Origin: Mucilaginibacter tolerans
GTDB taxonomy: Bacteria > Bacteroidota > Bacteroidia > Sphingobacteriales > Sphingobacteriaceae
NCBI RefSeq assembly: GCF_030519375.1
Contig: NZ_JAUMKB010000001.1
Coordinates: 1 to 64,000 of the forward strand
Length of the DNA stretch: 64,000 nucleotides
Direction of reading: 5' to 3'
In this document: positions 24,990 through 36,159 of the stretch, in pieces
Numbering within the stretch: position 1 is the first letter of the stretch
How the letters are laid out: each line of letters opens with the position of its first letter
Translations under genes and position numbers: made by a program
Notes under the pieces: model-generated
The model's input: the letters and a program-made list of their open reading frames with translations, nothing else
What the model was told of the DNA's origin: nothing
Database searches by the model: none

Positions 24990-25245
24990 ATCAGTATTTG
25001 GGTTTAATTAATAAGAAATATTACAATTACTGTTTATATAATTTTCCGAAGCAAGCACGGTCTGGCAAAAAAGTCAATCTATAAACAAATCCCTCTATAT
25101 CAGTACAATTCAAAAAAAGTATTTTTTTTATAAAACCCTCCAAAACAAAAAAAGTGTTCCCGGAGATATAGATTTATACTCAGTGCTCCTGATTTTTGTT
25201 GCGCTTTAGGCAAATAAATATTACCGCCGGTTGCTTAAAAAAAAA

Positions 25246-25276
25246 TTTGCACTTTCATTAATTAATCGTAATATTG
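25246..25276 (+). promoter_or_regulatory. Promoter of arsR overlapping its operator
   Basis: TTTG (25246-25249), 19 bases, then TAATATTG (25269-25276), one mismatch from TAnnTTTG. The -7 box lies inside the first ArsR dyad, so bound ArsR would block it. Confidence 0.55.
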
Positions 25277-25281
25277 CGATT
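25264..25281. promoter_or_regulatory. ArsR operator, site 1
   Basis: AATCGTAATATTGCGATT is an 18-base near-palindrome (16 of 18 positions symmetric) ending three bases before the arsR ATG. Confidence 0.7.
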
Positions 25282-25284
25282 GAT

Positions 25285-25614
25285 ATGGGACTTACCAAAA
25301 CTGAAATCTTCACCGATGAGCAAAACCGCCTTGCTACCATGATCAAGGCATTGGCGCATCCTGCCCGGATAGCCATATTGCAGCACTTGATCAAAACAAA
25401 TGCCTGTGTTTGCGGCAGCATTGTAGAAGAATTGGGATTAGCGCAGGCCACCATATCTCAACATTTAAAAGAATTAAAAAATGCAGGACTGATACAAGGT
25501 ACTATTGAAGGAGTAAGTGTCTGCTACTGCATTGAACCCAATGCCTGGGAATTATTGCACAAAGAATTGAATGCATTTTTTGCATTATACACCTGTAACG
25601 GAAAGTGTTGTTAA
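25285..25614 (+). CDS. arsR: ArsR family arsenic-responsive repressor
   Basis: A 109-residue winged-helix repressor. I use the ATG at 25285; a longer frame upstream would run through the promoter. ALAHPARIAILQHL opens the DNA-binding fold. The recognition helix region is LAQATISQHLKELKNAGLI. The arsenite site is the CVC pair Cys41/Cys43, as in the ELCVCDL type of ArsR; extra Cys occur at 80, 82, 104, 108 and 109, including the terminal CNGKCC. As(III) or Sb(III) binding should release the operator copies at 25264 and 25632. It heads the arsenic operon. Confidence 0.93.
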   Translation: MGLTKTEIFTDEQNRLATMIKALAHPARIAILQHLIKTNACVCGSIVEELGLAQATISQHLKELKNAGLIQGTIEGVSVCYCIEPNAWELLHKELNAFFALYTCNGKCC

Positions 25615-25631
25615 AAAAATTTATCGTCATC

Positions 25632-25649
25632 AATCGTAATATTGCAATG
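25632..25649. promoter_or_regulatory. ArsR operator, site 2
   Basis: AATCGTAATATTGCAATG repeats the first 14 bases of site 1 exactly, 17 bases after the arsR stop and 128 bases before the DUF6428 ATG. It suggests an internal ArsR-controlled promoter for the rest of the operon. Confidence 0.6.
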
Positions 25650-25650
25650 A

Positions 25651-25762
25651 ATTGGTTGTGGAAGTTATAAAAGTTTAATGGTTAATGCACTGAAATGGCA
25701 CACTAAGTGAAGACTATTCTTCCCCTTACAGCTTCTACATCCATTACAACCTCTACAACAAA
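25651..25762. repeat. Imperfect inverted repeat, GTT-rich and AAC-rich arms (copy b)
   Basis: Left part ATTGGTTGTGGAAGTTATAA, right part CATTACAACCTCTACAACA. It lies between ArsR site 2 and the DUF6428 gene, in the likely leader of the arsenic operon. Confidence 0.45.
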
Positions 25763-25776
25763 AAAGAAAAACTAAC

Positions 25777-26307
25777 ATGAACAAGCAAGAAACCATCACC
25801 TGGGGAACATTTAAGCAAATGTTATTGCAAAACCCGGAACTCGATCTGCAATTTCAGTATGCAGCCGATAAATGGGTGGCCCCCTCTTATCATATTACCG
25901 AGATCAAGCAGGCGCCAATAACATCTGTAGATTGCGGAGGAGTAAAAAATGAGTGGACAGAAATCATTGTTCAATTAATGGAGCCCGCCAGTCAGCAACA
26001 ATTGCGTGCGATGAAAGTGCGTAAAGCATTGTCTATAATTGATATTGTAGAAAAAGTTTTGCCACTGGATGTAAATGCGGAGGTAAAGGTTGAATTTGGC
26101 AACAATGAATTTGATACGCGCCAGCTTTCGCCTACTGCGTTGGTAATTGATGGAGAAAATTTGATTATTGACCTTCAGCCCGTTTCAGTTCAATGTAAGG
26201 CGAATGACCGTGGTGGTAGTTGTGGAACTCCTGTAAAACAAAAGGTAGAATTAAAAAACCTTGCTGTTGACAATTCCTGCTGCACACCCGGCGGGGGATG
26301 TTGCTAA
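25777..26307 (+). CDS. DUF6428 family protein of the arsenic operon
   Basis: A 176-residue cytoplasmic protein. The N-terminal and central part (TWGTFKQMLLQNPELDLQF, SYHITEIKQAPITSVDCGG, EWTEIIVQL) fits DUF6428, a family I know mainly from arsenic gene clusters. The last 25 residues add a separate Cys tail: GGSCGTP and a final CCTPGGGCC. Two vicinal Cys pairs could bind As(III) and act as a scavenger or chaperone (inference). It is followed at seven bases by arsN2, so co-transcription is certain enough. Confidence 0.8.
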   Translation: MNKQETITWGTFKQMLLQNPELDLQFQYAADKWVAPSYHITEIKQAPITSVDCGGVKNEWTEIIVQLMEPASQQQLRAMKVRKALSIIDIVEKVLPLDVNAEVKVEFGNNEFDTRQLSPTALVIDGENLIIDLQPVSVQCKANDRGGSCGTPVKQKVELKNLAVDNSCCTPGGGCC

Positions 26308-26314
26308 TTCTTAT

Positions 26315-26743
26315 ATGATGCAGATTATTAAAGCAATAAATTACAGGGAAAATATCATTGCCCTGCTCTCGGCTGAAAAACTGCCAAGTGACGATCTCCC
26401 TTCATCATTGGATAATTTTCTGGTGATGACGGAGGGTGATGAATTGGTTGGAGTGGTTGGATTAGAAATGTATGGAGGCTACGGGCTTTTGCGTTCGCTG
26501 GCTGTTAACCCAGATTACAGGAGCAAAAACATTGCTGGTAAATTAGTGGAGGAAATAGAAAAATTTGCTGTCTCAAAAGACTTAAAATCGATCATCCTTT
26601 TGACCGAAACTGCCCCGGATTATTTCTCCCGTAAAGGATATAGCCGGATCGCGCGAGCAGAAGTGCCTGCCGAAGTGCAGCAATCATCAGAATTCCGCCA
26701 TGTGTGCCCGCAGTCGGCAATTGCAATGAAAAAAGATTTATAA
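26315..26743 (+). CDS. arsN2: ArsN2-type GNAT N-acetyltransferase
   Basis: A 142-residue acetyltransferase. The ATG at 26315 comes just after the DUF6428 stop. The acetyl-CoA site is in LAVNPDYRSKNIAGKLVEE (R-x-x-x-x-G-K variant of the Q/RxxGxG/A loop), and TETAPDYFSRKGYSRI closes the domain. ArsN2-like proteins accompany arsenic operons; ArsN1 relatives acetylate phosphinothricin-like and organoarsenical compounds such as arsinothricin. Its stop overlaps the ATG of arsC by one base. Confidence 0.82.
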   Translation: MMQIIKAINYRENIIALLSAEKLPSDDLPSSLDNFLVMTEGDELVGVVGLEMYGGYGLLRSLAVNPDYRSKNIAGKLVEEIEKFAVSKDLKSIILLTETAPDYFSRKGYSRIARAEVPAEVQQSSEFRHVCPQSAIAMKKDL

Positions 26744-27162
26744 TGAAGAACATATTAGTATTATGCACCGGCAACAGCTGCCGCAGCCAGATAGCCGAAG
26801 GTTATCTGCAATATTTTGCCGGCGATAAAGCCAAAGTTTACAGCGCAGGAATAGAAACTCATGGCGTAAACCCCAAAGCCATACAGGTAATGGCCGAGGA
26901 TCATATCAATATATCTCACCATACCTCAAACAATGTGGATGAGTACATCAGCATCCCTTTTGATTATGTGATCACCGTTTGTGATAATGCAAAGGAGAAT
27001 TGCCCTTATTTGCCCGGCAATTTCAAACGCTTTCATTTTAACTTTCCTGATCCTGCCAAAGCGCAGGGTACACCACAAGAGATCATGGACGAATTCAGGC
27101 GTGTGCGCGATATGGTAAAGGTGTATAGCAAAGATTTTGTATCTGAACACCTGCCCGTATGA
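26743..27162 (+). CDS. arsC: Arsenate reductase, thioredoxin-coupled LMW-phosphatase type
   Basis: A 139-residue enzyme that reduces arsenate to arsenite. The P-loop CTGNSCRS gives catalytic Cys8 and Cys13-Arg14. The relay cysteines lie in TVCDNAKENCP (about residues 82 and 89). The general acid is in FNFPDPAKA. This is the thioredoxin-linked class (as in S. aureus pI258 and B. subtilis), not the glutaredoxin class. Start overlaps the arsN2 stop; stop overlaps the aquaporin ATG by four bases (ATGA), so translation is coupled. Confidence 0.93.
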   Translation: MKNILVLCTGNSCRSQIAEGYLQYFAGDKAKVYSAGIETHGVNPKAIQVMAEDHINISHHTSNNVDEYISIPFDYVITVCDNAKENCPYLPGNFKRFHFNFPDPAKAQGTPQEIMDEFRRVRDMVKVYSKDFVSEHLPV

Positions 27163-27809
27163 AGAAATATGTAGCTGAATTTCTGGGCACCTATGCTTTG
27201 GTATTTGCCGGAACCGGGGCTATCGTTATCGACCAGGAAACACATGGCAGTATTACCCACATTGGTGTTGCGATAACTTTTGGCCTTATTGTAATGAGTA
27301 TGATCTATGCACTGGGTGATATTTCAGGGGCTCATTTTAATCCTGCAGTAAGCATAGCCTTTGCCACAGCAAAAAAATTCCCCGCAAAGGAGCTTATTCC
27401 ATATATCATCAGTCAGTTATCAGGCGCTGTGACCGCAAGTCTCACTCTAAAATATTTGTTCCCATCCAACCAGTTTTTGGGAGCAACCATTCCCGCCGGC
27501 AGCGATTCGCAATCCTTTATATTAGAGTTTATACTCACCTTTTTTCTGATGCTGGTTATCATCAATGTAGCCAAAGGCAGTAAGGAACAGGGGATGTTTG
27601 CAGGTTTAGCTATTGGCTCTGTCGTGGCATTGGAGGCGATGTTTGCAGGACCAATATGTGGCGCTTCCATGAACCCGGCCAGATCATTCGGCCCGGCCGT
27701 AGTATCCGGGCACACGGAGCATCTTTGGATATATTTGGTTGCCACTACACTTGGAGCAATCCTGGCCATTCCAATTTGGAGCTTCTTAAAAACCAAGTCA
27801 TTACAATAG
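27159..27809 (+). CDS. MIP/aquaporin family channel of the arsenic operon
   Basis: A 216-residue inner-membrane channel with six TM helices and the two half-helix motifs HFNPAVSIA and SMNPARSFGP. In ars operons such channels (AqpS of Sinorhizobium meliloti) let uncharged arsenite, made by ArsC, flow out down its gradient. No ArsB or Acr3 pump and no ArsA occur in the window, so this channel is the likely exit route here. It is the last gene; the next gene converges from the other strand 34 bases away. Confidence 0.9.
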   Translation: MKKYVAEFLGTYALVFAGTGAIVIDQETHGSITHIGVAITFGLIVMSMIYALGDISGAHFNPAVSIAFATAKKFPAKELIPYIISQLSGAVTASLTLKYLFPSNQFLGATIPAGSDSQSFILEFILTFFLMLVIINVAKGSKEQGMFAGLAIGSVVALEAMFAGPICGASMNPARSFGPAVVSGHTEHLWIYLVATTLGAILAIPIWSFLKTKSLQ

Positions 27810-29173: not shown

Positions 29174-30172
29174 ATGAATACCAGTGACGTACAGGCTATG
29201 CTATTTAATCATGTCCGGGCACGTCTGCCCGAACATCTGTCGCTGGTTGATGAAGTTGCCGAACTGCTGAATATTAGCAATGATAGTGCCTACAGGCGAA
29301 TCCGCGGAGAAAAAACCATCGCACTTGATGAATTGAGAGTCATATGCAATACATACCATATCTCGCTTGATCAGCTATTGTTTATCCAAAACAACACGGT
29401 GATTTTTTCGGGGAATAAGGTAGATAGCGCTTCCTTTGGCTTTAACGAGTACCTAAAGGATATCATCCATAATCTGGAACTTTTCAAATCCTTAAGCAAT
29501 CCGCACATCTATTTTTATAACAAGGACATACCAATCTTTCATTTTATGCCTTTCCCGGAGCTGCGGGCCTTCAAATTCTTTTTCTGGAAACGGACTCTTT
29601 TGGGTTATTCCGAATTAGCAAAACAGCAGTTCAATGGCCTGGGAACAGATGAAGAAAGCGCTGAATTGGGAAAACGGATCATTCGTCTGTATAGCGATAT
29701 TCCGTCAACCGAAATATGGAATGAGGAGAATGTGCACAGCACCATCAGGCAGATTGAGTTTTACAGGCAATCAAATATATTTTCCGACAGATATATTCTT
29801 ACGAAAGTATATGAGCAGCTGGATGAACTGCTTAATCAGCTTGATATACAGGCTGAAGCCGGTAAAAAATCCTTGTTTGGCCATCAACCGGCGCACAATG
29901 CCCCCGGCTATGATATTTATGTAAACGAATGTTTGATAGGTGATAATACTATTTTTGTCGACAGCGACAAGCGGCAGATCACCTGCCTTAATCACAACGG
30001 GCTCAATTTCACCTCAACACAAGACAAGGATTTTTGCGATTATACCTCCCGGAATCTGCAAAACATTATCCGTAAATCGGCACACATCAGCCGTGTTGGC
30101 GAAAAGGAACGCAACATGTTCTTCAACACTCTTCATCAAAAAATACACAGTAAAATGTCGAACATAGTGTAG
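29174..30172 (+). CDS. Helix-turn-helix regulator with unknown C-terminal domain
   Basis: A 332-residue protein. Residues about 18-70 form a helix-turn-helix (LVDEVAELLNISNDSAYRRIRGEKTIALDEL in pieces). The long remainder is helical with aromatic residues and no known signature; it may sense a signal. Proteins of this build are widespread and unstudied in Bacteroidota. The TAG stop is followed immediately by the ATG of the TlpA-like gene, so the two are translated together. The upstream palindromes are possible binding sites. Confidence 0.75.
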   Translation: MNTSDVQAMLFNHVRARLPEHLSLVDEVAELLNISNDSAYRRIRGEKTIALDELRVICNTYHISLDQLLFIQNNTVIFSGNKVDSASFGFNEYLKDIIHNLELFKSLSNPHIYFYNKDIPIFHFMPFPELRAFKFFFWKRTLLGYSELAKQQFNGLGTDEESAELGKRIIRLYSDIPSTEIWNEENVHSTIRQIEFYRQSNIFSDRYILTKVYEQLDELLNQLDIQAEAGKKSLFGHQPAHNAPGYDIYVNECLIGDNTIFVDSDKRQITCLNHNGLNFTSTQDKDFCDYTSRNLQNIIRKSAHISRVGEKERNMFFNTLHQKIHSKMSNIV

Positions 30173-30793
30173 ATGAACGTAAATTGCAGCGTTCAATCAC
30201 CATCCATGCGGCTTAAAAAAATTTCTCTTTCCGATGCTGCCACTATCCTGCTGGTGCTTTTTACAATTGCCATGTTGTTTAGCATAAAGGCGCGCACTTG
30301 GGTAATAATGGGTTTGATGTCGCTCGGCTTTTACAATCCCAAAATACCGATAATAAAACCAGGTGAAAAGCTGATGCCTGCTCCTGCCATGGTGGTACAA
30401 ACCGTTGACGGCAAAACGATAGACCTGCAGCAGCAAAAAGGCAAGGTCGTTTTTATCAACTTTTGGGCGACCTGGTGCCCACCCTGCCGGGCAGAAATGC
30501 CATCGGTAAACGAGTTTTATGAGAAAGTGAAAAATGATCCGAACATCGTTTTCCTGTCTGTAGATGTAGATAACAGGCTGAATAACTCATCAGCTTTTAT
30601 GAAAAAACAAGATTACCATATACCGGTTTATGGAGGTAACCTGGACGGACTGCCGGCCACATTTTATTCGGGTACCATACCCACCACTTTGGTAATAGAT
30701 AAGCATGGACTGGTAGTATTTAACCACGCCGGCAAAGCCAGCTATGATGGCGAGGCATTTGTCAAATTCGTATTGGGATTGACAGAACAATAA
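30173..30793 (+). CDS. Membrane-anchored TlpA-like thioredoxin
   Basis: A 206-residue protein. The start directly after the previous stop gives an N-terminal polar piece, then one TM helix (about 20-40). An inner Met at 30206 is an alternative start. The thioredoxin domain faces the periplasm and has the active site WATWCPPCRAEMP (Cys pair around residues 102-105) and the cis-Pro region GTIPTTLVID. TlpA/ResA proteins reduce periplasmic disulfides. Pairing with an HTH regulator, ahead of two more redox-type signalling genes, gives the locus its redox theme. Confidence 0.88.
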   Translation: MNVNCSVQSPSMRLKKISLSDAATILLVLFTIAMLFSIKARTWVIMGLMSLGFYNPKIPIIKPGEKLMPAPAMVVQTVDGKTIDLQQQKGKVVFINFWATWCPPCRAEMPSVNEFYEKVKNDPNIVFLSVDVDNRLNNSSAFMKKQDYHIPVYGGNLDGLPATFYSGTIPTTLVIDKHGLVVFNHAGKASYDGEAFVKFVLGLTEQ

Positions 30794-30865: not shown

Positions 30866-32266
30866 ATGGTAGAATGTACACCTGCATTATTTAAAACATT
30901 TGAGGCACTGGTGGATGTGCCGGAAGCCCAGCTGCAATGGCTGATCGATCAGAGTGATTGTCGCGAATATCCGGATGGTGAATTATTAGCTGAACCGGGC
31001 CGACCTATCGTTGGCACGCACTTTATCATCAGCGGCAAACTGCGCTTATATGTCCCGATTGGCGGTGTAAAGCGTGAGCTGGGCGATTTTAAACCCGGTA
31101 GTATCACCGGTTACATGCCCTATTCTCGTGCAACGGTAAGCACAGGCTATGGGCGCACCATTGGTGTAACACAGATCATGACCTTTCCGATTGGAAAGAT
31201 TGAAGAAATGATCAGGCATCATTTTGAACTCACCCAGGCGCTGGTTCATGTTATGACCAACCGCGTGCGCACCTTCACCGCATTACAGCAGCAAAACGAG
31301 AAAATGCTGGCACTGGGAAAATTATCGGCAGGTCTGACGCATGAGCTGAACAACCCGGCATCGGCTATTGTGCGCGATTCGGAGTCATTACTAAAACATT
31401 TACAGCTGGAGCCTGACACGTTCAAATCGATGATCGCCATCAGGATGGAGCCTGAAGAGGTTGATGCAGTTACCCATGAGTTTTTCCGCTTCTTAACAGA
31501 GCGCAAGGGGGTCGATCTTACCATCCGCCAACGTGCGGAAAAGGAAGATGAACTGACTGATCTGTTCGATGAAATGGGCATGCAGTATGACCCCGAATTG
31601 GTTGAGAATTTTGTTGAGTTTGGGATAGAACCTAAGGATGTACAATCATTCCGCAAGCATATTCCGGAGCAGTTTCTTGAACCGGTATTTAACTGGATGA
31701 ACACGCTCCTGGTCACCGATAGGATGGTACAGGATATTGGGGAATCTGCCCGTCGCATTGCAACGCTGGTTAACTCGGTAAAAACCTATACCCATATGGA
31801 CCAGGGTCAGGAAAAGCAATATGCCGACATACGTATCGGAATAAAAAACACATTCCAGATGCTGATCTATAAGATCAAAAAAGGAAATATTACCGTGGTG
31901 AAGCAATTTGATGAAACCCTGCCACCGGTAAAAGCTCAAATAGGCGAACTGAACCAGGTATGGACCAATTTGATAGACAACGCCCTGGATGCTATGGAGC
32001 CTAACGGCAAGGGGACACTAACCATTAAAACAGAAAGGGATAAAGAATTTGTACAGGTAACCATTGCAGATGATGGCGTTGGCATACCCGAGGAAATATC
32101 CTCGCGTATCTTCGATCCGTTTTTTACAACTAAAGAAATGGGAAAAGGCACCGGGATGGGTCTCGAAGTAGTACAGCGCATAGTACAACAACACAATGGT
32201 TCTATAAAAGTTATATCAGAACCGGGGCATACAGCGTTTGTAGTATGCTTCCCAATTGACGGATAA
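30866..32266 (+). CDS. Sensor kinase with N-terminal cyclic-nucleotide-binding (CRP-type) domain
   Basis: A 466-residue soluble kinase. Residues about 10-135 form a cNMP-binding barrel (YPDGELLAEPGRPIVGTHFIISG). Then comes the phosphoacceptor helix with His159 in GLTHELNNPASAI, an unusually long helical insert (about 175-300), and the ATPase with N box LIDNALDAM, G1 ADDGVGIP and G2 GKGTGMGLEV. No membrane segment or DNA-binding part is present. It lies 175 bases upstream of a receiver-flavoprotein fusion, its probable target. Whether the barrel binds cAMP or another ligand is not visible. Confidence 0.9.
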   Translation: MVECTPALFKTFEALVDVPEAQLQWLIDQSDCREYPDGELLAEPGRPIVGTHFIISGKLRLYVPIGGVKRELGDFKPGSITGYMPYSRATVSTGYGRTIGVTQIMTFPIGKIEEMIRHHFELTQALVHVMTNRVRTFTALQQQNEKMLALGKLSAGLTHELNNPASAIVRDSESLLKHLQLEPDTFKSMIAIRMEPEEVDAVTHEFFRFLTERKGVDLTIRQRAEKEDELTDLFDEMGMQYDPELVENFVEFGIEPKDVQSFRKHIPEQFLEPVFNWMNTLLVTDRMVQDIGESARRIATLVNSVKTYTHMDQGQEKQYADIRIGIKNTFQMLIYKIKKGNITVVKQFDETLPPVKAQIGELNQVWTNLIDNALDAMEPNGKGTLTIKTERDKEFVQVTIADDGVGIPEEISSRIFDPFFTTKEMGKGTGMGLEVVQRIVQQHNGSIKVISEPGHTAFVVCFPIDG

Positions 32267-32287
32267 TTGTTGTAAATGATGGAATGG

Positions 32288-32430
32288 GTGGGGAGGTTTT
32301 AAAGGTTGTAATTATTGCATTGGTTGAAGTGGCTGAAACATTTAACTAATCAATCAGTCTAACCATTACAGCTAATAGAACTTTTTCAACATCTACAACT
32401 AATACAACTTAATCCAACCTCATCAACCAA
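32288..32430. repeat. Imperfect inverted repeat, GTT-rich and AAC-rich arms (copy c)
   Basis: The left half contains AAAGGTTGTAATTATTGCAT and TGGTTGAAGTGG. The right half contains TTTTTCAACATCTACAAC and CAACCTCATCAACC. It fills the gap between the kinase and its likely partner. Confidence 0.45.
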
Positions 32431-32441
32431 AAAAAACTACC

Positions 32442-34103
32442 ATGATCAAACCCATTATATTTTCAATAGACGACGACCCCCAGGTATTGCGCGCCATAAA
32501 CCGCGACCTGAAATCGCAATATAATTCCGAATACAAGATCATCAGTACTACCTCGGCAAATGAGGCATTAGAAGCTATTGCCGAAATGAAAAATGCAGGC
32601 GATCCGGTGGCGATGTTCCTTGTAGATCAGCGTATGCCCGAAATGGAGGGGGTAGACTTTCTGCAAAAGGCTATCAAAATTTATCCCGATGCCAAACGGG
32701 TATTACTTACTGCCTACTCTGATACCGTTGCTGCAATTAAAGCAATCAACGTGGTACAGCTTGACTATTATCTAACCAAGCCATGGAACCCGCCCGAAGA
32801 AAAGCTATACCCGGTGATAAACGACCTGCTCGACGATTGGCAAAGCCATTACACGCCCGATTTTAAAGGCATTAAGCTGGTTGGCTATCAATACAACCCA
32901 AAATCGCACGAGATAAAGGACTACCTGGCGGGCAACCTTATCCCTTACCGATGGTTTGATATAGAAAGCAACCCGGAGGCTAAAACATTGCTCGAGGCCA
33001 ACAATCTGGACAGAACTGCCTTGCCGGTGATTGTTTTTGAAAACGGGGAATGTGCCTGCCAACCAACTATAAGGCAAATAGCTGAAAAAGCCGGACTACA
33101 ACCGGAGATACAAAACGATATTTATGACGTGGTGATTATTGGTGCGGGCCCTGCCGGTTTGGCTGCCGCTGTGTACGGATCATCCGAAGGATTGAAAACC
33201 TTACTGGTAGAGCGCAGGGCGCCGGGCGGTCAGGCCGGTACAAGTTCACGTATCGAGAACTATCTGGGCTTCCCGGCGGGCTTAAGCGGTGCCGATCTGA
33301 CACGGCGGGCCATTAGCCAGGCTACCCGTTTGGGAGCGCAGTTCCTGTCACCGCATTCTGTAAACGACATACGCGAGAAAGATGGTTATAAAAAGATCAT
33401 ACTGGATGACGGTCCGCATATTATGAGCCGGTCGGTAGTAATCACCACAGGAGTTGATTACCGCAAGCTTGAAGTAGAAGGTGTGGATAATTTCACCGGG
33501 GCAGGTGTTTATTACGGTGCCGCCACTACCGAAGCCAGTGCCTGCAAGGATAAGGATGTATTTATCATTGGCGGCGGTAACTCAGCCGGTCAGGCAGCTA
33601 TGTACCTGTCCAAATTTGCACGCCAGGTGTATATTATCATCCGCCGCGACGATCTGACAGCAACGATGTCGGCTTATTTAATCGATCAGATCAAAAATTC
33701 GCCCAATATCGAGGTATTGCCAAATACAGAAGTATGCAAGGCCTGCGGCAACAGTTACCTTGAAAAACTGACGTTGCTTAACGTAAAAACACAGGAAAAG
33801 AAGGACTATGATGCCAATGCATTATACATTTTCATCGGCGCAAAACCATTTACAGATTGGATAAAGCTCGACATCATTAAAAACAACAAGGAATTTATCG
33901 AAACCGGCCGCGACCTGGCTGCCTACGATAATTTCAAAAAGATATGGAAGCTTAACCGCGACCCATACTTACTTGAAACCAGTTGCCCGGGCATATTTGC
34001 AGCAGGCGATGTTCGCGCCGGTGCCATGAATCGCGTTGCATCAGCTGTAGGCGAAGGATCAATGGCTATCAGTTTTGTGCATAAGTATTTGGCGGAGGTG
34101 TAA
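32442..34103 (+). CDS. Response regulator receiver fused to thioredoxin-reductase-like flavoprotein
   Basis: A 553-residue fusion. Receiver (1-130): SIDDDP, phosphoacceptor Asp62 in LVDQRMPEMEG, LLTAYS, LTKPW. Middle (about 140-220): a glutaredoxin-like fold without its CPYC. C-terminal part (about 225-553): thioredoxin-reductase type, with FAD motif VIIGAGPAGLAA, NAD(P)H motif IIGGGNSAGQAA and the FAD-binding GIFAAGDVR. Where TrxR has YCATC this protein has YGAAT, so the disulfide relay is lost; Cys368 and a CKAC pair (432, 435) are elsewhere. The family is known as fused response regulator/thioredoxin-disulfide reductase. The phosphodonor is probably the preceding kinase. The electron acceptor is unknown. 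Confidence 0.92.
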   Translation: MIKPIIFSIDDDPQVLRAINRDLKSQYNSEYKIISTTSANEALEAIAEMKNAGDPVAMFLVDQRMPEMEGVDFLQKAIKIYPDAKRVLLTAYSDTVAAIKAINVVQLDYYLTKPWNPPEEKLYPVINDLLDDWQSHYTPDFKGIKLVGYQYNPKSHEIKDYLAGNLIPYRWFDIESNPEAKTLLEANNLDRTALPVIVFENGECACQPTIRQIAEKAGLQPEIQNDIYDVVIIGAGPAGLAAAVYGSSEGLKTLLVERRAPGGQAGTSSRIENYLGFPAGLSGADLTRRAISQATRLGAQFLSPHSVNDIREKDGYKKIILDDGPHIMSRSVVITTGVDYRKLEVEGVDNFTGAGVYYGAATTEASACKDKDVFIIGGGNSAGQAAMYLSKFARQVYIIIRRDDLTATMSAYLIDQIKNSPNIEVLPNTEVCKACGNSYLEKLTLLNVKTQEKKDYDANALYIFIGAKPFTDWIKLDIIKNNKEFIETGRDLAAYDNFKKIWKLNRDPYLLETSCPGIFAAGDVRAGAMNRVASAVGEGSMAISFVHKYLAEV

Positions 34104-34116
34104 TCGCCCGGATAAA

Positions 34117-35820
34117 ATGATAAAAAGAGAGCTACTATACAAAATGCTTCTGCTGCTTAGTATGGTGGCTCTCTCTGCTTTAAACGGATTTGCCCAGCAA
34201 CTTGCCGGTACAAGTTGGAAATCATCTGGCGTGGCATCGGCCCAATTACACTTTGCAAAAGATACTGTTTGGATAAATAGTCACAAAAACTCGCCGCTCA
34301 GCTTTTCATTTTCTCAAAAACGAGATACCTTATTTCTATATGGCAGTTCAAAGAAAGACAATCACTTGGAGTCTGATACGTCTTACTATAAAGTTCGCTA
34401 TACTAACAACAGTCAGCATCTGACGCTGTCAGCAATTAAAGGGCACCATGCCGATAGAGAAAAAAATTTCACGGGCAGGTTCAATTATGTTCCCGAAGAA
34501 GATGGGGCACCGCGCGACTGGTCGTATATGGATGCCATGAGCGATTCCATTGCGGGGATCAGCCTGTATAAAGCTTATGAACTATTAAAGGTTAAAAAAC
34601 TAAAACCTGCCCCTGTGATAGTTGCTGTGATTGACAATGGATTTGATATTGGGCATGAAGACCTGAAAGGCTCAATCTGGACCAACACCAGGGAAATCCC
34701 GGGCAACGGAATTGATGACGATCACAATGGCTATGTAGATGATGTGCATGGATGGAACTTCAGGGGCGATAAGAACGGGCACATTGTGGATGCTGAGCAA
34801 TCGGGAGCTACCCAAACCTATGCTGCGTTTAAAAGCAAATATGAAAATGCTGACACCAGCCATTTGACTGATAGAGAAAAGAAATTGTTTTCCATCTACA
34901 AAAAAGCCAGGGCGAAATATTTTGAGACACTTAAGACCACCAAGGATTCTGTTGATCTGAAATATGCATACAATGTAGACTATATCTCGGCCAAATTGAT
35001 CCAAAACGATAATGGCCAAATTCATAATCATTCGTATGGAAGCGCCGTTATTACTTCAACGGAAGCACTAAGCCATGGCACTCATGTCGCTGGCATCATT
35101 GCAGCAAAAAGGAATAATGGCAAAGGAGTCGATGGCATTGCCGACAATGTCCGGATCATGCCGATAATTGCTACCACAGGACCCGGCGATGAAAGAGACA
35201 AAGATATTGCCAACGGTATTTTCTACGCTGTGAATAACGGTGCGCGCATCATCAATATGAGTTTCTCAAAAAGATACTCGCCTTATAAAAAACTGGTTGA
35301 CAGCGCGGTGCAATATGCTGAACTAAAACATGTCCTGATCATTCATGCTGCCGGCAACGATGGCAACAACAACGATACGGCCAATTACTACCCCATTGCT
35401 TATTATCAAAACGGGCATAAAGCTTCCAATTTTATTACTGTTGGTTGGAGCAGGCCCTTATTTAACTACAGGCTTGCACATCCATATTCCGGGTACGGCA
35501 AAAACAATGTAGATCTTTTTGCACCTGGCAGTGATATATTCTCAACTGTACCCGGCGATTTGTATGATTATAAATCGGGCTCGAGCATGTCGACCCCATG
35601 TGTTACGGGAGTTGCTGCGTTACTGCTGTCCTACTTTCCTGACCTGACTGCTGAACAGGTAAAAGATATTCTTCTACTGTCAAGCTTTAAGCCCAATATC
35701 ATGGTGAACCGGCCCGGCGGATCAAAAATACAGGTGCCATTTAGTAGCCTGTCCGTTTCGGGTGGCATAGTTAACGCCCATAAGGCCGTTCAAATGGCAA
35801 TAGAACTGTCGGGGAAATAA
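34117..35820 (+). CDS. Secreted subtilisin-like serine protease (S8)
   Basis: A 567-residue exported protease. I use the ATG at 34117, 13 bases after the previous stop, because it opens a signal peptide ending GFAQ. Residues about 25-145 look like a prodomain. The catalytic triad is Asp in VIDNGFDIGHEDL, His in SHGTHVAGIIAA and Ser in SGSSMSTPCVTG. The NGIDDDHNGYVDDVHGWNF stretch is typical of Bacteroidota subtilases. The spacing says it is transcribed with the flavoprotein, though a link in function is not obvious. Confidence 0.93.
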   Translation: MIKRELLYKMLLLLSMVALSALNGFAQQLAGTSWKSSGVASAQLHFAKDTVWINSHKNSPLSFSFSQKRDTLFLYGSSKKDNHLESDTSYYKVRYTNNSQHLTLSAIKGHHADREKNFTGRFNYVPEEDGAPRDWSYMDAMSDSIAGISLYKAYELLKVKKLKPAPVIVAVIDNGFDIGHEDLKGSIWTNTREIPGNGIDDDHNGYVDDVHGWNFRGDKNGHIVDAEQSGATQTYAAFKSKYENADTSHLTDREKKLFSIYKKARAKYFETLKTTKDSVDLKYAYNVDYISAKLIQNDNGQIHNHSYGSAVITSTEALSHGTHVAGIIAAKRNNGKGVDGIADNVRIMPIIATTGPGDERDKDIANGIFYAVNNGARIINMSFSKRYSPYKKLVDSAVQYAELKHVLIIHAAGNDGNNNDTANYYPIAYYQNGHKASNFITVGWSRPLFNYRLAHPYSGYGKNNVDLFAPGSDIFSTVPGDLYDYKSGSSMSTPCVTGVAALLLSYFPDLTAEQVKDILLLSSFKPNIMVNRPGGSKIQVPFSSLSVSGGIVNAHKAVQMAIELSGK

Positions 35821-35889
35821 AATACGGGATGCACAATAACCATTACATTCTGTTATTTTTTTCCTAATTTTCTACCCAAATCAATCCTA

Positions 35890-36159
35890 ATGGAAGACAA
35901 AATCTGCGAGCATCTTGCAGCTATCAAAAAGCTGAAACATGCAAAAGAATATGTATGCGAAGAGTGTATTAAACACGGTGGTAGCTGGGTGCACCTTCGC
36001 ACCTGCCAAACCTGTGGTGTAACCTTGTGCTGCGATAGTTCACCCGAAAAACATGCCTCAAAACATGCCCATGAAGCCGGTCACCCGGTAGTTATCTCTG
36101 CTGAGCCCGGCGAAAGGTGGCTGTGGTGTTATGTGGATGAAGAATTTGCAGAGTATTGA
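35890..36159 (+). CDS. UBP-type zinc finger protein
   Basis: An 89-residue single-domain protein. All metal ligands of the ZnF-UBP fold are in place: CEH near residue 6, CEEC at 23-26, CQTCG around 39, CC around 47 and the HASKHAHEAGH cluster. The closing WCYVDEEF is also typical. In eukaryotes this domain binds the free Gly-Gly end of ubiquitin. Bacterial single-domain forms have no proven ligand. From memory they often lie close to receiver-TrxR fusions, as here. It follows the protease gene by 69 bases. Confidence 0.9.
   Translation: MEDKICEHLAAIKKLKHAKEYVCEECIKHGGSWVHLRTCQTCGVTLCCDSSPEKHASKHAHEAGHPVVISAEPGERWLWCYVDEEFAEY

Follow-up and report, generated by a model that had tools for sequence, protein, structure and literature searches.

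A CRP-type histidine kinase, a receiver-flavoprotein without CxxC sites and a UBP zinc finger form a conserved unit in Mucilaginibacter tolerans and other bacteria

The unit and its proposed role

The 64,000-nucleotide stretch of the Mucilaginibacter tolerans genome analysed here (hereafter the window) encodes a histidine kinase with an N-terminal CRP-type cyclic nucleotide monophosphate (cNMP) barrel, a response-regulator receiver fused to a glutaredoxin-like (Grx-like) fold and a thioredoxin-reductase-like (TrxR-like) flavoprotein, and a small zinc finger protein of the zf-UBP family. The three proteins form a unit conserved across phyla, recognizable by its composition and conservation, by the co-occurrence of its members, by gene fusions and by the absence of CxxC motifs from the flavoprotein. 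As for its function, we consider it an even call that the kinase signals to the receiver of the cysteine-stripped flavoprotein, and that the UBP protein links this flavoprotein to targets in the membrane; for many relatives the target is likely a cation:proton antiporter. The parts of this explanation differ in strength. The kinase and the receiver-flavoprotein are very probably partners, and the UBP protein probably belongs to the same unit; control of antiporters as its general output falls just short of an even chance, and an antiporter as the target in M. tolerans itself is doubtful.

Co-occurrence of the kinase and the flavoprotein

The strongest argument for a link between the kinase and the flavoprotein is the recurrence of the pair, with differing gene order, in seven phyla: Bacteroidota, Cyanobacteriota, Gemmatimonadota, Pseudomonadota, Actinomycetota, Acidobacteriota and Verrucomicrobiota. 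In a sample of 247 Bacteroidota genomes, searched at E <= 1e-60 for the flavoprotein core and at E <= 1e-45 for the kinase (the genome-level kinase scan scored few first-look candidates per genome), the core was found in 36 genomes, in 32 of which it is of the receiver type. The kinase is present in all 32 of these, versus one of the 215 genomes that lack the receiver type (G192, a partial match), and in none of the four genomes that carry only receiver-less flavoproteins. In genome G133 the kinase is present but lies on a different contig from the flavoprotein. The same association is seen at the level of fetched loci, where a kinase was counted if it scored >150 bits to the profile within ~4 kb of the flavoprotein: it accompanies 53 of 55 flavoproteins with an intact receiver (30/31 in Bacteroidota and 23/24 in the cross-phylum set, the 24th locus, L096, being cut off by the end of its contig), versus none of 40 other cores (five receiver-less ones from Bacteroidota and 35 cross-phylum ones, four of which have degenerate receivers). 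The kinase of locus L066 is divergent. The conservation of this arrangement excludes the possibility that it arose in the window by chance.

In 28 of the 40 other cores a cNMP domain is fused straight to the flavoprotein (by profile). These CRP-type fusions constitute another branch, with no kinase in the vicinity, so the phosphorelay probably takes the place of a direct fusion of sensor and enzyme. Four actinobacterial flavoproteins (L107, L109, L111 and L130), which make up one side of a tree branch, carry a pseudo-receiver in which most phosphorylation residues have been lost (Asp is missing in three of the four), and they too have no kinase nearby.

The initial annotation of this DNA had regarded the kinase, the receiver-flavoprotein and the UBP protein as one redox-signalling unit, and had noted a subtilase between the last two. 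The kinase, the flavoprotein and the UBP protein are indeed conserved together across phyla, and membership of the subtilase is not supported.

Domains and predicted phosphorylation sites

All features described here lie on the forward strand. The kinase (positions 30866..32266, 466 residues) matches cNMP_binding (2.2e-6) and HATPase_c (1.1e-26) in Pfam; homologues of it adjoin nearly all receiver-type flavoproteins. The cNMP-binding-like barrel comprises residues 33-119 (30962..31222) and the ATPase domain residues 361-464 (31946..32257), and the predicted phospho-acceptor, His159 within HELNNP (31340..31342), is invariant in alignments A2 (20 rows) and A5 (22 rows). Both the barrel and the histidine named in the initial annotation are confirmed. 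In the same alignments N368/N372, D402, G404 and G428/G430/G432 are invariant or nearly so. Thus the kinase has the His and the N and G boxes of a two-component system, and the flavoprotein has the corresponding acid pair, Asp, Thr/Ser and Lys of the receiver. The structure model of the kinase (mean predicted local distance difference test score, pLDDT, 83.8; predicted template modelling score, pTM, 0.45) consists of the barrel, the long first DHp helix carrying H159, the second DHp helix and the ATPase domain, and solved kinases match its DHp/ATPase part. The model also places between the two DHp helices (residues 120-180 and 268-312) a helical insert at residues ~182-267 (31409..31666); thus in this family the DHp appears to be split by ~85 extra all-helical residues. 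Such an insert is unusual among histidine kinases.

The cyclic AMP pocket of CRP-type domains is marked by a Glu and an Arg (FGE...R). Sensing of cyclic AMP by the kinase was considered and is not supported, as the 22 rows of A5 show no conservation of these residues where they would align. Of the 55 kinases found, 52 match the cNMP-barrel profile.

The flavoprotein (32442..34103, 553 residues) matches Response_reg (1.3e-13) and Pyr_redox_2 (7.7e-37), and its predicted structure (mean pLDDT 89.5, pTM 0.75) shows a receiver followed by a glutaredoxin-type fold and a TrxR-type reductase; in Foldseek it is matched to TrxR chains (3r9u, target template modelling score 0.92) and to full-length AhpF. 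The receiver spans residues 6-118 (32457..32795), with acidic residues at 10-12, T90, K113 and the predicted phospho-acceptor Asp62 within VDQRMP (32625..32627), a residue that the initial annotation had singled out. This set is retained in 55 of 55 intact-receiver relatives, with a Glu at residue 12 in L068.

The Grx-like part (32871..33092), with the predicted strand and helix order b-a-b-a-b-b-a at residues 144-217 and an invariant Pro195, has NPKS (residues 152-155) at the active-site CxxC; its assignment is supported by this order with Pro195 and by a precomputed Glutaredoxin (PF00462) match in the 78% identical homologue P0060. The designation "Cys-less" originally applied to it does not hold in the strict sense, because C204 and C206 (ECAC) are present off the active-site position. 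The TrxR-like domain, which is predicted to bind flavin adenine dinucleotide (FAD) and reduced nicotinamide adenine dinucleotide (phosphate), NAD(P)H, comprises residues 228-552 (33123..34097). Here YYGAAT (residues 357-362, 33510..33527) replaces the CxxC motif: aligned by eye, the ordinary TrxR encoded elsewhere in the genome has SACAVC at this position, in agreement with the substitution initially reported. The window flavoprotein is the sole full-length copy of its kind in the genome.

The loss of both sites extends to the aligned relatives. In an alignment of 96 rows (95 fetched proteins and the window protein; contig ends truncate three rows, and matches below 240 bits to the reductase profile, which are ordinary TrxRs, were left out), neither the reductase site nor the Grx part contains CxxC in any row. 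A single Cys is found in the Grx site region in five rows and near the reductase site in one. The FAD- and NAD(P)H-binding motifs GAGPAG, GGGNSA and AAGD are conserved. Dithiol exchange is therefore unlikely, as originally suggested, and the flavoprotein would either reduce a non-disulfide acceptor or serve as an NAD(P)H/FAD-dependent regulatory subunit. It scores below the cut-offs of both enzyme families, with 241.6 bits for TRX_reduct (TIGR01292; cut-off 343) and 162.2 bits for AhpF (cut-off 502.9). It has the fold and the cofactor motifs of a thioredoxin-disulfide reductase and no CxxC; AhpF is distinguished by an N-terminal thioredoxin fold with CxxC, and the flavoprotein has one such fold from which the motif is gone. 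Given the missing CxxC and the ordinary TrxR with CAVC encoded separately in the genome, we reject its identification as another such enzyme, and note that its relatives are named "thioredoxin reductase" or "FAD-dependent oxidoreductase" in the sources; the nearest named homologues are from Mucilaginibacter and Dinghuibacter. A few residues past the lost CxxC, C368 is kept as Cys in 70% of the 96 rows, and three cNMP-fused relatives (L113, L116 and L133) have in their Grx part a CxxT that resembles a monothiol site.

The UBP zinc finger

The zf-UBP protein (35890..36159, 89 residues) bears the subfamily signature CCDSSxxxHA. Its Pfam match (7.1e-11) spans 35857-36159, and the ATG at 35890 was chosen as the start. 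Family membership is well supported, with 42.6 bits to the zf-UBP profile (cut-off 22.7) and a Cys/His pattern invariant in 12 rows. The closest solved structure is 2ida (94 bits over 80 residues). Domains of the zf-UBP family bind a C-terminal Gly-Gly peptide, and in HDAC6 the Arg of GRY contacts ubiquitin; the CDSS of the signature occupies the stretch where HDAC6 has GRY.

Several comparisons tie the zinc finger to the flavoprotein. A zf-UBP match above the cut-off was found in 27 of the 247 Bacteroidota genomes, 25 of which carry the flavoprotein core, and the flavoprotein lies within ~6 kb of 21 of the 28 Bacteroidota UBP matches (both compared by eye). Across phyla, UBP genes occur in 19 of 23 searchable genomes with receiver-type flavoproteins versus 2 of 14 control genomes. 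Finally, in one and the same scan a UBP gene was found within ~8 kb at 37 of 95 fetched flavoprotein loci versus none of 21 ordinary TrxR loci, which bears out the statement, in the initial annotation, that UBP zinc fingers often neighbour fused receiver/TrxR proteins.

UBP domains also occur in fusion proteins. When the UBP part of L064 was used as a query against metagenome proteins, seven of the 120 listed among 704 proteins had UBP fused to a cNMP kinase, and the other listed proteins were antiporter or TrkA_N fusions by their domain column. One of the kinase fusions, P0157, is homologous to the window kinase along its full length (33% identity over 464 aligned positions) and carries UBP at its C-terminus. 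In the kinase-UBP fusions FGE is seen at the pocket stretch of the barrel, unlike in the family alignment of the window kinase.

Antiporters linked to UBP proteins

The association of UBP proteins with antiporters, and the UBP fusions to antiporters and to the kinase, had been missed in the initial annotation. In 13 loci of the Bacteroidota family f23 the gene order is a Kef-like antiporter (Na_H_Exchanger+TrkA_N), UBP, kinase and flavoprotein, with a DsbA-like protein between the antiporter and UBP in eight of them (domains were assigned by Pfam on examples and by profile or cluster for the remainder). In L064, L065 and L067 (families f41 and f29; L067 by profile) the antiporter, again Na_H_Exchanger+TrkA_N, is fused to UBP beside the kinase and the flavoprotein. 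Of the 31 receiver-type loci fetched from Bacteroidota, 18 contain a Na_H_Exchanger+TrkA_N antiporter, and such an antiporter is fused to or near 19 of the 28 Bacteroidota UBP matches.

In Actinomycetota we inspected ~8-kb loci around all 17 UBP matches from the cross-phylum genome search that lie away from the flavoprotein, and ten of them contain a CPA1-type antiporter. In two it is fused to UBP (L161, 2607-4475; L163, 4146-6002), and each of these genomes has a further, separate UBP gene that accompanies the kinase and the flavoprotein; in the other eight it is unfused (L162, L164, L169, L170, L181, L183, L184 and L186). No antiporter was found in the fetched cross-phylum UBP loci from outside Actinomycetota (L168, L171, L172, L173 and L180). 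In L177 (3927-6714), from the window's own class, the UBP gene is followed by a gene for a Kup-type K+ transporter.

Neighbouring genes

The kinase, flavoprotein, subtilase and UBP genes are separated by gaps of 175, 13 and 69 bases. All four were located where the initial annotation had placed them, with support from Pfam, including the subtilase (34117..35820; Peptidase_S8), whose ATG lies 13 bases past the flavoprotein stop. The N-terminus of the subtilase looks by eye like a signal peptide. It was rejected as a member of the unit, as no homologue was found at 1e-10 in 142 fetched loci. The genes for a TlpA-like protein and a helix-turn-helix (HTH) protein located upstream (29174-30793) were likewise rejected: the HTH gene has no homologue in 36 Bacteroidota loci, and the TlpA-like matches near the flavoprotein in these loci sit on the opposite strand. 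A defence-system reading was also discarded, as PADLOC yielded just a weak match to the kinase and a match to the subtilase. Viral carriers of the unit were searched for, and none were found. Elsewhere in the window, positions 25231-27809 encode in a row an ArsR-like regulator, an unclassified protein, an acetyltransferase-like protein, an ArsC-like phosphatase and an aquaporin-like channel, which by eye resembles an arsenic-resistance cluster.

Proposed mechanism and alternatives

We propose that the kinase would sense a ligand and transfer a phosphoryl group from His159 to Asp62, that phosphorylation of the receiver would alter the NAD(P)H/FAD state of the flavoprotein or its binding surface, and that the zinc finger would dock the kinase-flavoprotein pair onto its target, the output being post-translational. 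The best candidate for the coupling element is UBP, which some proteins carry fused to the kinase and others to antiporters. It is tempting to extend this into a bolder scenario, which we regard as speculative and rather unlikely, in which a cysteine-less, UBP-docked flavoprotein driven by a phosphorelay opens or closes cation:proton antiporters, as a phosphorylation-controlled, Kef-like redox gate that was invented independently and has spread over several phyla; this would provide the first function for bacterial UBP fingers, as antiporter adaptors unrelated to ubiquitin.

A number of observations weigh against this explanation. No UBP gene is within reach in 58 of the 95 flavoprotein loci. 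The linkage of antiporters to the flavoprotein was seen in only three Bacteroidota families (f23, f29 and f41), and in loci L071-L133 none of the 63 flavoproteins has a Kef- or CPA1-like antiporter nearby; seven of the 17 distant actinobacterial UBP loci also have none (L165, L166, L167, L182, L185, L187 and L188). In the window's own class none of eight UBP loci contains a Kef- or CPA1-like antiporter, and no such match was found within the 64-kb window; the genome encodes three PF00999 antiporters, none of them beside UBP, and has only weak TrkA_N matches. The query for UBP fusions came from an antiporter fusion, and together with the length window it favours antiporter-fusion matches. Of the 55 kinases, one (L069) has another N-terminus without a cNMP-barrel match, and two more (L088 and L090) scored under the threshold of the profile scan. 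Finally, on a tree calculated with a quick method the receiver changes three times and the kinase five times, with only two independent receiver-kinase pairs. Both are clade-level traits with few independent changes, so the Fisher values, which ignore relatedness, overstate the evidence.

The last point speaks for a scenario of chance or lineage-inherited synteny, with shared history and no shared function. We regard this scenario as largely refuted and give it very little credence, since the gene order differs among phyla, the kinase of G133 is retained on another contig, UBP adjacency changes ~20 times on the same tree, fusions arose repeatedly, and neither UBP nor the cNMP kinase was found at any of the 21 ordinary TrxR loci (apart from two weak single-domain matches, L153 and L154). 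A more serious alternative, which we hold to be possible though not probable, is that the flavoprotein acts, under the control of phosphorylation, as an NAD(P)H oxidoreductase whose acceptor is soluble (quinone, ferredoxin, flavodoxin or oxygen), that UBP serves just to localise or stabilise it, and that the antiporters are separate clients of other UBP proteins. TrxR-like ferredoxin-NADP reductases do without CxxC and are found among the solved relatives of the flavoprotein, which resembles them in having lost both sites and kept the FAD and NAD(P)H motifs intact; the lack of Kef- or CPA1-like antiporters near UBP in the window's class and at flavoprotein loci L071-L133 fits this alternative as well. 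Against it stand the UBP fusions, with antiporters as well as with the kinase, and the Kef genes beside the unit in the three Bacteroidota families.

The direction of the signal could also be the reverse. If the flavoprotein were the sensor, its FAD/NAD(P)H state would feed back on the receiver and the kinase, the kinase would be the output stage, and the unit would report redox poise. The absence of CxxC from all 96 rows and the fusion of CRP-type sensor domains to the same core in another branch are compatible with this, as is the finding, in the available part of the source, that activation of the antiporter KefC by the flavin oxidoreductase KefF is independent of enzymatic activity (PMC10224563). 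We nonetheless regard it as improbable, because the placement of the receiver on the flavoprotein argues for flow from the kinase to the flavoprotein, and because the Bacteroidota gene orders revealed no other receiver and no phosphotransfer protein as a conspicuous conserved neighbour.

In most response regulators studied, the output is DNA binding or a second messenger. In this unit it is a flavoenzyme fold minus its disulfide chemistry, and phosphorylation would directly affect either redox cofactors or a binding surface. If our preferred explanation of a UBP-coupled flavoprotein acting on membrane targets is correct, ion exchange would be set by the redox state without gene regulation. The conservation of UBP as a partner, together with its fusions, offers a concrete candidate role for bacterial zf-UBP proteins and suggests that a widespread system may couple redox to ion homeostasis.

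Comparison with known systems

In our classification the unit is a two-component system whose output is an enzymatic fold; its receiver-TrxR (REC-TrxR) combination is known, and the association of kinase, UBP and antiporter is apparently undescribed in the open-licence literature. REC-TrxR proteins have been published (PMC5847659), and the window protein, with the same receiver-TrxR architecture, is of that kind; the available part of that text makes no mention of the CRP-type kinase, UBP, antiporters or the absence of CxxC from both sites, and the accessible part of PMC8945050 contains no such architecture. No description of the complete unit with an antiporter was found in the open-licence literature, which leaves out most subscription papers. 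Low-Mr TrxR and AhpF share the fold of the flavoprotein, and AhpF likewise has thioredoxin folds ahead of the reductase; they differ in possessing CxxC, which is absent from both the reductase and the Grx-like part here. The solved structure 2ida belongs to the same zf-UBP family as the window protein; it was deposited as a hypothetical protein, and we know of no function or partner for it.

Direct control of an antiporter by a phosphorelay has a precedent in PtsN-YcgO, where, according to the accessible text, a phosphorelay protein inhibits a CPA1 K+/H+ antiporter by direct binding, without transcription (PMC11808508). The regulator there is a protein of the phosphotransferase system (PTS) where the unit has a receiver-flavoprotein, and that text reports no zinc finger. 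The nearest working model is KefC/KefF, as an analogy rather than as a sign of membership. As far as the available texts go, KefF is an operon-encoded flavin oxidoreductase subunit that activates KefC via its cytosolic domain (PMC10224563; PMC11150392), and the KefC-KefF crystal interface coordinates zinc ions, the catalytic activity of KefF not being needed (PMC10224563). KefF is an FMN (flavin mononucleotide) quinone reductase of another kind, and a receiver, a kinase and UBP are unreported for Kef in the accessible part of PMC10224563; moreover, the Kef system includes an antiporter of the CPA2 class (Na_H_Exchanger+TrkA_N) in the same operon, and the window has none. The resemblance lies in the relatives of the unit, whose linked antiporters have the same Na_H_Exchanger+TrkA_N composition and are likewise accompanied by an operon-encoded, predicted flavin oxidoreductase.

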